DNA from: Chloroflexota bacterium
GTDB lineage: Bacteria > Chloroflexota > UBA11872
Reading direction: 5' to 3'
Length of the DNA stretch: 49,308 nt
Assembly: GCA_026707585.1 (NCBI GenBank)
Contig: JAPOWQ010000003.1
Coordinates: 1 to 49,308, forward strand
Both the position numbers and the translations under genes were made by a program. Positions 43,627 to 48,328 of this stretch are shown here, one piece after another; position 1 is the stretch's first letter, and the number at the start of each line of letters is the position of its first letter. The notes under the pieces were generated by a model. It saw nothing but the letters and a program-made list of their open reading frames with translations. It was not told where the DNA came from and did no database searches.

Positions 43627-44526
43627 ATGCGAATCGGCTACATCGGTCTGGGGAAGATGGGCATGCCCATGGCGATCAACCTGCGGGAGGCGGGGCACGA
43701 CCTGATCGTTCACAACCGCAGCCGCGGTAAGGTCGACGATTTCGTGGCCGACGGCGGGGTGGCCGCCAGCACGGCGGCCGAGGTGGCGGCGCAGTCAGAC
43801 GTCGTCTGCGTGAACGTGCCGACCCCCGAAGTCTCGCTGGAGCTGCTGCTGGGCGCGGACGGCGCGATCGAGAACGCCCGCGAAGGGCAGCTGTGGATCG
43901 ACTTCGGCACCAACGGCCCCGACACGGCCCGAGCCTGCGCCGAAGCCGCCGCGGCGAAGGGCGTGAATTACCTGGACGCGCCGGTCAGCGGTGGGCCGGG
44001 CGGTGCGCAGGCCGGGACCCTGGCCGTGTTCGTGGGCGGCACCGAGGAAGCGTTTGCGCAGGGCAGCGAGATTCTGGACATCATTGGCGGAAAGATTGAG
44101 CACTTTGGTCCGGCCGGCACCGGCTGTATCGCCAAGCTGACCAACCAGATGATCATCGCCAGCGTGCGCCAGGCCAACGCCGAGGCCTTTGTGCTGGCCG
44201 TCAAGAACGGCCTGAACCCGCGCCAGCTCTACGACACGCTGATGGGCGCCTTTGCCGCCAGCCGCTGCATGGAAGTGGACATTCCGAACCTGGTTCTTCC
44301 GCAGGACTACAGCGCCAACTTTGCCGTCGACCTGTTGCTGAAAGACCTGGGACTGGCACTGGAGGTGGGCCGCCAGAGCGGGGTTCCGTTGGTGGCTACG
44401 GCCCAGGCCGACGCCATTTACCAGGAGATTCGAGCCATGGGCTGGGGCGACCTGGATGCCGCTGCCACCTTCAAGCGCCTGGAAGCAATCGTGGGCGTGG
44501 AGGTGACGGAACCGGAGGCGGGCTAG
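43627..44526 (+). CDS. 3-hydroxyisobutyrate dehydrogenase family NAD(P)-dependent oxidoreductase
   Basis: 299 residues from ATG 43627, preceded by GAGGGG ten bases upstream. The dinucleotide motif IGLGKMGMPMAINL (about 6-19), VNVPTPE, the substrate loop DAPVSGGPGGAQAGTLAVFVGG (about 118-139) and GCIAKLTNQMIIAS with the catalytic Lys (near 170) are all typical. The family includes tartronate semialdehyde reductase (GarR/GlxR). With the aldolase and hydroxypyruvate-isomerase-like gene before it, tartronate semialdehyde reduction in sugar-acid or glyoxylate use is a good guess. It might link to the TPP enzyme at the left edge, but that is speculation. Confidence 0.9.
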   Translation: MRIGYIGLGKMGMPMAINLREAGHDLIVHNRSRGKVDDFVADGGVAASTAAEVAAQSDVVCVNVPTPEVSLELLLGADGAIENAREGQLWIDFGTNGPDTARACAEAAAAKGVNYLDAPVSGGPGGAQAGTLAVFVGGTEEAFAQGSEILDIIGGKIEHFGPAGTGCIAKLTNQMIIASVRQANAEAFVLAVKNGLNPRQLYDTLMGAFAASRCMEVDIPNLVLPQDYSANFAVDLLLKDLGLALEVGRQSGVPLVATAQADAIYQEIRAMGWGDLDAAATFKRLEAIVGVEVTEPEAG

Positions 44527-44663: not shown

Positions 44664-45074
44664 ATGGGTTGGCTTAGTCGCGAAATCAGCTTCCTGCTGG
44701 CCCGGCTCGTCACGAACTTCTTCGCCGTGCTGGCGGTGACGCAGCTGCTGGAAAACGGCATTGTGCTGCCGGATCGGGGCAGCGACCGGTTCTGGGTGGC
44801 CGTGTTCGGCCTGGCCGTGGCCTTGGCCATTCTGAACTCCTATGTGCGCCCGGCGCTGGAGCTGGTCCTCAAGCCGATCAGCTGCCTGTTGAAGGTGCTG
44901 ACCTTCGGGCTGTCGCATTTCGTGATCAGCGCGCTGGTGTTCTGGGCCGCGACGATGCTGGTGGACGACTTCACCATCGCGGATCTAGGCACGGCCTTGC
45001 TCGGGACCGTGATCGTGGCCGCGGTTGGCGCCTTCGGGTCGCTGGCGTTCGGCGGCCGTTCCACCGACGAGTGA
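44664..45074 (+). CDS. Phage-holin-4/YvlD-type membrane protein
   Basis: 136 residues with four predicted helices. ALAILNSYVRPALELVLKPISCLLKVLTFGLSHFVISALVFWAA (about 55-98) is the conserved PF04020 pattern (N.lirP.l..l..P...l..Gl..lvi.al). The family is named for resemblance to mycobacteriophage holins but most members are chromosomal and of unknown function in membrane stress. Its stop overlaps the following nuclease gene by GTGA. Confidence 0.83.
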   Translation: MGWLSREISFLLARLVTNFFAVLAVTQLLENGIVLPDRGSDRFWVAVFGLAVALAILNSYVRPALELVLKPISCLLKVLTFGLSHFVISALVFWAATMLVDDFTIADLGTALLGTVIVAAVGAFGSLAFGGRSTDE

Positions 45075-46879
45075 GTTCAGAAGCCAGGGCCAGCGACGAG
45101 GCCGCGCCGGGCCGGCGCAGCGTCCTGGTGGAGGCGGCGGTAGCGACGCTGGAGGACGCGGGCCGCCCCATGACGTTGCAGCAGCTGGCGCGCGCCGTTC
45201 TGCACGTGGAGGCGGGCGGCGCCCACATTGGTGCGCGCGTCCTGTCGCCATTGCTGGCGGCCGACGACCGCCTGGCACCCGCAGCCGCCGGGCACTGGGG
45301 GCTGGCGGCCTGGTCGCAGCGCTCCGAGGCCATCGACGAAACCGAATTCGTGGTGTTCGACATCGAGACCAACGGCGGGCGCGGCGGCCGGCACCGGGTT
45401 CTGGAAGTCGGGGCACTGCGTATGCGGGCGGGCCGGAAGGTTGCGCGCTATGCGTCGCTGGTTCGGGTGCCCGCCCGGGTGTCGAAGTTCGTATCCCGGT
45501 ATACGGGCATCACCGACGAAATGCTGAGCGATGCGCCGCCGATCGAGACGGTCCTGGACGAGTTCCGGGAGTTTCAGGCCGGCGGCGTGCTGGTGGCGCA
45601 CAACCTGCCCACGGACCTTGGCTACCTTAACCGTGAAGCCGTGTGGGCGGGTCGGGCGCTGTTTCCCGGCGACGGCCTGGACACCATGGAGTTGAGCGCC
45701 GCGCTGCTGCCCGACCTGCCGGGTACCGGGTTGGCCACCGTGCTGGAGGCGACGGGCATCAAGGACACGCCCACGCACCGAGCCCTGGACGATGCCGGGG
45801 TCACGGCTCAACTGTTTCAGTTTCTCCTGGGCGAAGCGGCCGACCGCGAGGCGCGAAGGCTGGACGATCTGCGACGGCTGGCGGCCCGGGGCGGGCCGGA
45901 AGGCCGGCACCCACGGCGTGCGCGGAAACTGGCGCGCTGGGCGTCGCGCAATCTGCCGCCATCACCGGGCGTGTATATCTTTCGCGACTCGGCCAGCCGG
46001 CCGCTGTACGTCGGCAAGTCCACCTCACTGCAGCGGCGCGTCCGCAGCCACTTCACCGACTCGGCCGGATTCGTTCGGCGCCGCGACGGGATGCTGGAGC
46101 AGATCGAGGCGATCGAGTGGGAACCGACGGGTTCGGAGCTGCGCGCCCTGGTGCGCGAAGCCGAGCTGATTACCGTGCTGTCCCCCACCTTTAACCGCCA
46201 CCGCAGCTGGCGGATTGGCCGGCGGTTCGTGCGGGTTGGACGAGCCGAAGCCGCCGTAACGCACGCGGCCGCCGTTCCGCGGGACGACGGGGCAGCCTAC
46301 CTGGGGCCGTTTCCAACCTCGCGGGACGCGCGGCTGGCCAGCGACGCGGCGCGCCGGATCTTCGAGCTGCCGTCGCGAAGATCCGTGGACAAGCGGGTTG
46401 CCGCCTGGCGACGCGATGCGGCGGTTGCCTTTCTGGGCGTAAGCCGGGAGGCAGCCCTGCAGATGGTGGAGGCGGCCGACGCGGAGGCGTCCGAGCGGGA
46501 GGCTCTGGCGCGCCGCATTCGGCGGGCGCGCGTGCTGCGCCACCCGGTTCGCGGCGGCTTGGGCGCCGCGCCCATGCTGGCCATCACCGCCGGCACGACG
46601 CCCGGCGATGCGGAGCTCGTGCGAATCAACAACGGTGCCATCGCCGCAATCGAGTCGATGTCACGCCCGCGACGTCCCACGGTTCGCGCCGCCCTGGAGC
46701 GCCTGGGCAAGGCGAGCCCGTCGCGGTCTGACGGCAACGACTACGAACGGCCCATCGTGCTGGCCTGGCTGCACGCGCATGCCGACGATCCGGACACCGT
46801 CGACTGGGATCCCGAGCTTTCGCGAGCATTCGTGGATCGCGTGTGGCGGCGCGTGCGGCAGGCGGCGATCAGAGGTTGA
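45071..46879 (+). CDS. Three-domain nuclease: HARE-HTH-like, DEDDh exonuclease, GIY-YIG endonuclease
   Basis: 602 residues. About 15-80: AAVATLEDAGRPMTLQQLARAVL..., ending in GHWGLAAW, looks like a HARE-HTH winged helix found on restriction and chromatin proteins. About 90-255: DEDDh exonuclease with VVFDIETNG (Asp/Glu), VAHNLPTDLGYLN and HRALDDAG, giving all four acids and the His. About 295-375: GIY-YIG nuclease with PSPGVYIFRD, PLYVGKSTSLQRRVRSHF and ELRALVREAEL (metal Glu). The C-terminal 200 residues are basic-helical and resemble UvrC/Cho-associated regions only loosely. DnaQ-GIY-YIG fusions are known in Actinobacteria (annotated as exonuclease/UvrC-like), but the N-terminal HTH is, to my knowledge, not usual. 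GTG start overlaps the preceding stop; probable role in DNA repair or defence. Confidence 0.85.
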   Translation: MSSEARASDEAAPGRRSVLVEAAVATLEDAGRPMTLQQLARAVLHVEAGGAHIGARVLSPLLAADDRLAPAAAGHWGLAAWSQRSEAIDETEFVVFDIETNGGRGGRHRVLEVGALRMRAGRKVARYASLVRVPARVSKFVSRYTGITDEMLSDAPPIETVLDEFREFQAGGVLVAHNLPTDLGYLNREAVWAGRALFPGDGLDTMELSAALLPDLPGTGLATVLEATGIKDTPTHRALDDAGVTAQLFQFLLGEAADREARRLDDLRRLAARGGPEGRHPRRARKLARWASRNLPPSPGVYIFRDSASRPLYVGKSTSLQRRVRSHFTDSAGFVRRRDGMLEQIEAIEWEPTGSELRALVREAELITVLSPTFNRHRSWRIGRRFVRVGRAEAAVTHAAAVPRDDGAAYLGPFPTSRDARLASDAARRIFELPSRRSVDKRVAAWRRDAAVAFLGVSREAALQMVEAADAEASEREALARRIRRARVLRHPVRGGLGAAPMLAITAGTTPGDAELVRINNGAIAAIESMSRPRRPTVRAALERLGKASPSRSDGNDYERPIVLAWLHAHADDPDTVDWDPELSRAFVDRVWRRVRQAAIRG

Positions 46880-46946
46880 GGCGTCTCCGCCACCCGCCGG
46901 AGACCGGCGATGGATGCCGCGTACTCGCCCGGCGTGTGGATGCGGG

Positions 46947-47017
46947 AGGCGACGCTGGGAATCGAACCCAGGATAGGGGTTTTGCAGACCCCCGCCTTAC
47001 CACTTGGCTACGTCGCC
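46947..47017 (-). tRNA. tRNA-Cys (anticodon GCA)
   Basis: A 71-base cloverleaf on the minus strand. Acceptor GGCGACG/CGTCGCC with discriminator T, anticodon stem GGGGT/ACCCC around CTGCAAA (anticodon GCA), T arm CTGGG TTCGATT CCCAG. The G1-C72 and U73 pattern is the bacterial tRNA-Cys identity. CCA is not encoded (CCC follows). Confidence 0.95.
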
Positions 47018-47101
47018 CAAGCGCCTTTGGCCCTTGCCAAAGGATATCCAGCACACCGCGTCCCGGCCAACAAGCCGAGTCGTCGCGGGGCCTGGGCTCC
47101 G

Positions 47102-48328
47102 TCAGCCAACCGGAGCGCGCTGCACGACGCGCCAGCGGTTGTCAGCGTTGCGGGTCAGGAAGAACCCAACGTCCTGGCTGATGGGCCCGCGCTGGATGGT
47201 TTGACCGTCGGACGATCGGCGCGTGGCCAGATTGCCCTGCTCACGAACGAGGACGCCGGCCATCTCGCCGTCCAGCCTGGCGTCAACGACCTGGATGCGA
47301 ACCTCGCTCTCCAGATATACGCCGCGGGCTCGCAACTGCTGAACCTGTGCCTCGATGGCCTGAGCGAGCGACTCGTCATAGACCGACCGCAGGCCGGTGG
47401 CATCAAGGGTCTTATAGGCTTCGAACTCGAGATGGGCGGCGCGCACGGCCACGTTGGCGGCCTGGTCGAGGCTGGCGGCCTCGGCGTCCTGCCGGCCGCG
47501 CACGACAACGACCGCGATGAGCACGGCGAGCAGGGCCGCGAGCATGAGGCCCGTTCGGATCAGGCGCAGCCGCCGATGCTCGGCCTGCTCAACGGCCTCG
47601 GCCTCGGCGAACGTCTGCTCGTGCGACTCGATGTTGGAACGTATGGTGGCCGAGGCTGGCTCGGGATCGCCTGGACGCCCCGTTCCAATGTCCCAGATCT
47701 TCGGATCGTCAATTCCACGAGCGTCGTCCTCGTCATGAGCCGGTGGCATGTCGTCAACGTTGGAGCGCAGGATCTCTCCGTCTTCAGGGCTGAACTGAGG
47801 CTCCGACTGATCGGGCAGATCGGCCGGCGGGGCAACGCGCAGGGAAATAAAGCGCCCGTGCGCAGCTTGTTCGCTGTGCTTGAACCGCACCGCCTGCCCG
47901 AGCGTCCAGCGGCCTTCCAGCAGGAGCGTCAGATCGCGGCCGTCAAGCAGGGCTAACTCGCTTGCCCAGTCGGCGTCCACGGACATCTGTAGAGGGAAAC
48001 CCTGGACGACGATCAGGATGTCGACCTGGCGATCGCGCGCGGCCTCGGCCAGCGCCGCGTGATCGTTGCTGTCAAACCACAACGCAATCCGGCGCCGCAC
48101 CCGTTCCAGGCGCACGGCGCCTTCGACGTGGCCGCCTACCGGCGCAAGCGGCTCAAGCGCTTCAGCGTCGGAAGCCATGGCCAGCACTTCGACCACGTTG
48201 GCCAGCTTGGGCAGGCGATCCGCTTCTTCGGTCAGCGCTTCGTTGAACAGCTCGGCATGCGCGGCCAGGACCCGGCGCCGACGCGCGCCCGCATCGCCGC
48301 CTGTCGTCGCGTCATTCGTCGGTGACAT
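47102..48328 (-). CDS. Single-pass membrane protein with possible IMS-like C-terminal domain
   Basis: 408 residues from ATG 48326-48328; an ATG 18 codons upstream is in frame. The cytoplasmic first about 235 residues are acidic (an RRRVLAAHAELFNEALTEEADRL helix, then IVVQGFPLQMSVDADW and a LLEGRWTLGQAVRF strand pair). One transmembrane helix (LMLAALLAVLIAVVVV, about 260-276) follows. The external C-terminus (about 285-405: EFEAYKTLDATGLRSVYDESLAQAIE ... RWRVVQRA) resembles the ARC6/IMS or SnoaL-like alpha+beta fold in which a helix pair is followed by four strands. No function can be named. It is separated from ccdA by about 100 bases on the same strand. Confidence 0.6.
   Translation of the reverse strand: MSPTNDATTGGDAGARRRRVLAAHAELFNEALTEEADRLPKLANVVEVLAMASDAEALEPLAPVGGHVEGAVRLERVRRRIALWFDSNDHAALAEAARDRQVDILIVVQGFPLQMSVDADWASELALLDGRDLTLLLEGRWTLGQAVRFKHSEQAAHGRFISLRVAPPADLPDQSEPQFSPEDGEILRSNVDDMPPAHDEDDARGIDDPKIWDIGTGRPGDPEPASATIRSNIESHEQTFAEAEAVEQAEHRRLRLIRTGLMLAALLAVLIAVVVVRGRQDAEAASLDQAANVAVRAAHLEFEAYKTLDATGLRSVYDESLAQAIEAQVQQLRARGVYLESEVRIQVVDARLDGEMAGVLVREQGNLATRRSSDGQTIQRGPISQDVGFFLTRNADNRWRVVQRAPVG

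Follow-up and report, generated by a model that had tools for sequence, protein, structure and literature searches.

Fusions of an exonuclease to a GIY-YIG nuclease were described in 2006 as "Cho-like+Exo" proteins, relatives of UvrC from Actinobacteria with an ExoIII domain at the N-terminus and a C4-UvrBb region at the C-terminus (Dunin-Horkawicz; PMC1564403). An earlier proposal for the mycobacterial Exo+Cho fusion has the exonuclease start at the cut made by GIY-YIG and degrade the DNA across the lesion (PMC1564403). That proposal is about two decades old, and we found in the literature neither a test of it nor a tested function for any member of the family. For Rv2191, which we take to be the Mycobacterium tuberculosis homologue of the nuclease reported here, the functional literature consisted of incidental mentions only.

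Other described proteins resemble this nuclease in part. UvrC shares with it the GIY-YIG domain and the middle region. Escherichia coli Cho is also a GIY-YIG nuclease, which cuts on the 3' side and is accessory to UvrC, but it has neither an exonuclease nor a winged helix and carries a C-terminal domain of its own (PMC1564403). The type IV restriction enzymes Ahi29725I and Apa233I likewise combine a winged helix with a GIY-YIG domain (PMC11037411); they are described without an exonuclease or a UvrC-type C-terminus, and the likeness noted here is one of architecture. MrfB of Bacillus subtilis is likewise a DEDDh exonuclease in DNA repair, but it is paired with a helicase, and the abstract of that paper mentions no GIY-YIG fusion (PMC10889028).

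Domain organisation of the nuclease

We analysed a window of 49,308 nucleotides, meaning the whole stretch of DNA under study, from a Chloroflexota bacterium. The features discussed below are as follows.

43675-44526, plus strand: 3-hydroxyisobutyrate-dehydrogenase-type gene (HIBADH), third member of the conserved block (Pfam NAD_binding_2 and NAD_binding_11)
44664-45074, plus strand: YvlD-type membrane protein (PF04020), overlapping the nuclease start by 4 nt (Pfam, 9.9e-16)
45071-46879, plus strand: 602-residue protein with winged helix, DEDDh, GIY-YIG and UvrC middle region, in that order (ORF, GTG start)
45119-45316, plus strand: HARE-HTH-related winged-helix domain, residues about 17-82 (AlphaFold, hhalign, Foldseek)
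45344-45832, plus strand: DEDDh 3'-5' exonuclease domain, residues 92-254 (Pfam RNase_T; VIA-align)
45965-46195, plus strand: GIY-YIG endonuclease domain, residues 299-375 (Pfam GIY-YIG; UvrC N-domain relatives)
46196-46876, plus strand: UvrC-derived middle region, residues 376-602, with degenerate UVR helices followed by a beta-sheet domain (hhalign)
46397-46402, plus strand: position of the missing four-cysteine loop, after residue about 443 (alignment with loop-bearing relatives)
46427-46528, plus strand: degenerate remnant of the UVR (UvrB-binding) motif (alignment; Pfam UVR absent)

A preliminary description of this DNA had reported one 602-residue reading frame with two complete active sites, and both parts of that claim were confirmed. 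The frame has exactly the ends given above, starts with GTG, shares 4 nt with the upstream ORF 44664-45074 and is conserved as a single copy, at 56-100% identity, in 19/19 genomes of its family. A relative at E <= 1e-30 was also found in 94 of 400 genomes sampled from the phylum, and a chance frame can be dismissed. The RNase_T match (Pfam, residues 94-249, E 1.9e-26) contains all five DEDDh residues (D97, E99, D182, H236 and D241), and the GIY-YIG domain (Pfam match over residues 299-372, E 1.4e-8) has all six residues of its site (Y302, Y313, G315, R323, E363 and N375). These six were unchanged in every row of the alignment, including rows in which the exonuclease has decayed. The exonuclease domain aligned to the PolC exonuclease with a VIA-align Z of up to 25.5, and the solved structures nearest in sequence to the GIY-YIG domain are the UvrC N-domains 1yd6/1ycz. 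The full-length AlphaFold model has a mean pLDDT of 85; Foldseek and VIA searches with this model probed the exonuclease part only, and the absence of UvrC and HARE from their results is uninformative. We regard the overall domain make-up as very well supported.

Residues 376-602, which the preliminary description had left undescribed, are a UvrC-derived middle region that has lost its cysteine loop. We use f1 for the family of the window genome, f1 and f2 for its order, and f1, f2 and f3 for the clade that lacks the four-cysteine (C4) loop. In relatives outside this clade the GIY-YIG domain is followed, as in UvrC, by such a loop (C-x(n)-PC-x(n)-C-x-x-C) and by a UVR motif (FERAARLRD). Their C-terminus matched the UvrC proteins of these genomes (hhalign, 99.3%) and was matched in turn by the C-terminus of the C4-less clade (99.2%). 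Direct hhalign of the C4-less C-terminus to UvrC gave 0.8%, so the link to UvrC is transitive, through the C4-bearing relatives. No Pfam match to RNase H or HhH was found, and the protein stops within the middle region.

The loop was present in 20/21 Chloroflexota rows outside the clade, the sole exception (L070) being generally decayed, and in 0/29 rows of f1, f2 and f3; the window nuclease contains no cysteine anywhere. Pfam UVR was found in 16/49 relatives and not in the window nuclease. On the tree the three families cluster at 92/77, under the threshold at which support is starred, which makes one loss of the loop likely, though not certain. In UvrC, this loop is reported to hold [4Fe4S] and to participate in DNA complexes, according to the passage of PMC9426483 that cites Silva 2020. 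What is new here is an order (f1 and f2) and one sister family without the four-cysteine loop, and with no UVR motif seen.

These features place the nuclease close to the Cho-like+Exo proteins. The preliminary description had noted that exonuclease and GIY-YIG fusions are known from Actinobacteria, and the Cho-like+Exo group (PMC1564403) bears this out. Its members (PRK07883, "DEDD exonuclease domain-containing protein", for example the mycobacterial fusion) have the same succession of DEDDh domain, UvrC-type GIY-YIG domain and middle region and, like the window nuclease, have no RNase H or HhH domain. The window nuclease differs from them in its added winged helix, its missing C4 loop and its degenerate UVR motif; from UvrC it differs in lacking RNase H, HhH, C4 and UVR alike. 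It also stayed under the NCBIfam cut-offs for PRK07883 (283.3 bits against 495 for NF005906, and lower on the other four models). Thus the DEDDh domain lies N-terminal to a UvrC-type GIY-YIG domain as in Cho-like+Exo, but because C4, UVR and scores above the NCBIfam cut-offs are lacking, we file the nuclease as a sister lineage: it derives from the Cho-like+Exo relatives of UvrC without being a member of the subfamily. The five NCBIfam models are matched from their positions 3-26 onward, starting at nuclease residues 73-89, so that the models have no space for a winged helix.

The N-terminal winged helix

The preliminary description had read residues 1-90 as HARE-HTH-like, to be distinguished from an ordinary DnaQ N-terminal extension. 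AlphaFold, run on the full protein and on the domain alone, predicted helices at 18-30, 36-44 and 48-63 and wing strands at 68-70/75-78, and for residues 21-80 modelled as an isolated domain the block means were 89-94. Against a HARE-HTH profile of 25 domains from Chloroflexota, the region gave an hhalign probability of 96.3% (score 49.2, 64 columns). Controls stayed below 2%: a MarR winged-helix profile gave 0.6% (score 12.5) and the rest of the nuclease against HARE gave 0.4% or less; among 100 column shuffles the top score was 15.9. These results support a HARE-HTH-related winged helix and not an ordinary DnaQ extension, and the gap between 0.6% for MarR and 96.3% for HARE makes a generic winged helix without HARE kinship less likely. 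Foldseek with the winged-helix domain placed the HARE domain of RNAP delta at ranks 1-4, with E only 0.007-0.013, and in VIA-align that domain reached Z 7.2-7.4, level with many winged helices, of which 2od5 was the top at 8.8.

Although residues 17-82 thus resemble HARE-HTH (PF05066) and the RNAP delta N-domain in profile and fold, they missed the Pfam cut-off (residues 19-48, E 0.2, 12.5 bits against a gathering score of 25.9), as did the best-scoring relatives with E of about 1e-4 to 1e-3. The GxTP motif with the HARE insert between helices 2 and 3 was found in 0/49 nuclease relatives compared with 25/25 HARE domains. HARE domains are reported to have an additional helix in the HTH (PMC11037411); the model of the nuclease shows just three helices ahead of the wing, with a short loop in place of the insert. 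Strict HARE-HTH membership is excluded by the missing GxTP and the score below the cut-off; kinship is retained, and both profile and model point to a shortened, HARE-related domain that is not canonical HARE-HTH. So the HARE-like reading stood as to relationship and fell as to membership. As a separate observation, a 345-residue frame elsewhere (G000, contig C28, 96563-97078; L092) encodes two canonical HARE-HTH domains in tandem and occurs in several related genomes too.

The winged helix had also been called unusual for such a gene, which did not hold: the same domain is carried by relatives across Chloroflexota and is conserved as far as distant ones. It was absent from the few actinobacterial and proteobacterial homologues compared. 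The conserved domain is an extra and possibly targeting module outside the curated family models. It is not a substitute for C4 and UVR, since relatives that have both also have the winged helix. Residues 17-82 are slightly acidic (net charge -2), and DNA binding by them is thus not obvious.

These data bear on the idea of a UvrB-independent nuclease directed by DNA structure or modification, in which the winged helix would read a DNA feature and bring the nuclease domains to it. HARE domains have been proposed as readers of modified bases, and the relationship of the N-terminal domain to HARE speaks for modification as the target, as does the existence of winged-helix/GIY-YIG fusions that read N6-methyladenine, the type IV restriction enzymes (PMC11037411). 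Independence from UvrB would fit the absence of C4 and UVR, but the presence of the same winged helix on C4- and UVR-bearing relatives means that it replaced neither. Because the HARE-specific insert with GxTP is missing and there is no island-like patchiness within the family, we consider this explanation unlikely.

Gene neighbourhood and inheritance

The gene upstream of the nuclease encodes a YvlD-type protein (PF04020, 58.7 bits against a cut-off of 28.8); "holin-like", as it had been called, merely reflects the Pfam family name, Phage_holin_4_2. The order HIBADH-YvlD-nuclease is common to f1 and f2. YvlD lies directly upstream of the nuclease in 19/19 genomes of f1 and 5/5 of f2 (24/24 of the order), and in 2/2 of a further family, f4, where HIBADH was not seen. 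No YvlD was found beside the nuclease in f3 (0/5) or in the other classes examined (0/19). The two genes overlap by 4 nt in the genus and in some f2 genomes and in other cases by 1 nt, and where they do not overlap they lie 19 to 84 nt apart. The unusual 4-base overlap claimed earlier therefore holds for the genus and part of f2 and not throughout, and the linkage itself, far from being unique to this genome, is real and clade-limited. Since HIBADH is also linked in the order, part of the YvlD linkage is general synteny.

This linkage raises the question of whether the nuclease works with YvlD, for example in DNA uptake or in DNA processing at the membrane. The adjacency in the whole order and in both f4 genomes, where the two frames frequently overlap (-4 or -1 nt), is what such a tie would predict; the missing YvlD in f3 and in other classes, and the parallel linkage of HIBADH, weigh against it, and we judge it quite improbable. 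Even so, it is hard to see what the linked membrane gene would do in a repair pathway, and this counts against the repair reading set out below.

Scans of the neighbourhood for promoters and terminators found none. A tRNA-Cys (gca) lies directly after the nuclease on the minus strand (46944-47018), and the plus-strand ORF 46910-47956, which traverses it, is probably spurious. In one complete genome (L033 62-1483, equal to L013 2562-3983) the HIBADH and YvlD frames run on without an intervening stop codon, a possible fusion, and one sister-family genome has another YvlD-like frame close to the nuclease (L050, 3-302).

A search of genome contigs showed that the close relatives are metagenome-assembled Chloroflexota. 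The nuclease tree agrees with taxonomy, no patchy, island-like distribution was found within the family, and inheritance of the nuclease in bacteria is vertical. This is also the evidence that decides on a role in anti-phage defence. DEDDh domains are found in defence proteins, and PADLOC reported matches to a CRISPR-associated DEDDh protein and to PDC-S48; these span the generic exonuclease domain only, and no defence model was matched over its whole length. Viral contigs and phage records likewise matched the exonuclease domain only, save for one unverified contig. Because every genome of the family has the nuclease, always in the same housekeeping surroundings, and its tree agrees with taxonomy, we regard a defence function as highly improbable, and vertical inheritance with housekeeping neighbours rules out a defence island. 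The contig just mentioned, labelled "bacteriophage" and obtained from human faeces (L076; MT835764.1, 3001-3969), carries an actinobacterial-type exonuclease/GIY-YIG gene; on the tree this sequence falls among the Actinobacteria, and it may come from a bacterium.

Proposed role in excision repair

The reading we narrowly favour is that of an accessory excision-repair nuclease of Cho-like+Exo descent within the UvrC family, an enzyme that nicks and then resects. Its activities, its substrate, the order of steps, the role of the winged helix and any role of YvlD are what we infer. The GIY-YIG domain would nick the damaged strand 3' of the lesion, like UvrC and Cho. The DEDDh 3'-5' exonuclease of the same chain would then load onto the fresh 3'-OH, degrade the strand back past the lesion and leave a 3'-OH for repair synthesis. 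Resection through the lesion would make the second, 5' incision, which UvrC performs with its RNase H domain, unnecessary, as would suit a protein without RNase H. The probable task of the winged helix is to place the enzyme on DNA or against a partner protein. With the cysteine loop and the UvrB-binding motif gone, recruitment in the C4/UVR-less lineage is probably no longer through the usual UvrC/UvrB contact.

A complete set of UvrA, UvrB and UvrC, the last separate and full-length, is encoded elsewhere in the genome, which suggests that the nuclease is accessory; single-copy, vertical inheritance beside this set points to accessory repair and not to defence. Of the "cut-and-resect repair or defence" enzyme suggested earlier, the repair part agrees with the Cho-like+Exo proposal; nothing specific supports the defence part, and the conserved block contains no defence genes. 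The missing UVR and C4 might alternatively mark a shift of function away from excision repair. Cho works without a UVR domain, so the loss of UVR by itself leaves dependence on UvrB possible. Given the winged helix and the lost loop and UVR motif, the choice of target may have changed relative to the known fusions. A stronger proposal, which we put forward tentatively and think unlikely, is a UvrC-derived nick-and-chew nuclease independent of UvrB and of the iron-sulphur loop, steered by a HARE-derived winged helix and translationally coupled to a membrane protein; if true, it would be a one-protein excision machine in a Chloroflexota lineage.

Coupled cutting and chewing is not obligatory in all relatives, because in some of them (L057 and L068 of family f4, L064 and L070) the DEDDh residues have decayed and the GIY-YIG residues are kept. 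The lineage thus provides natural variants missing single modules, namely the C4 loop and UVR here and the exonuclease site in f4, and these could reveal the need for each module of a UvrC-type enzyme.
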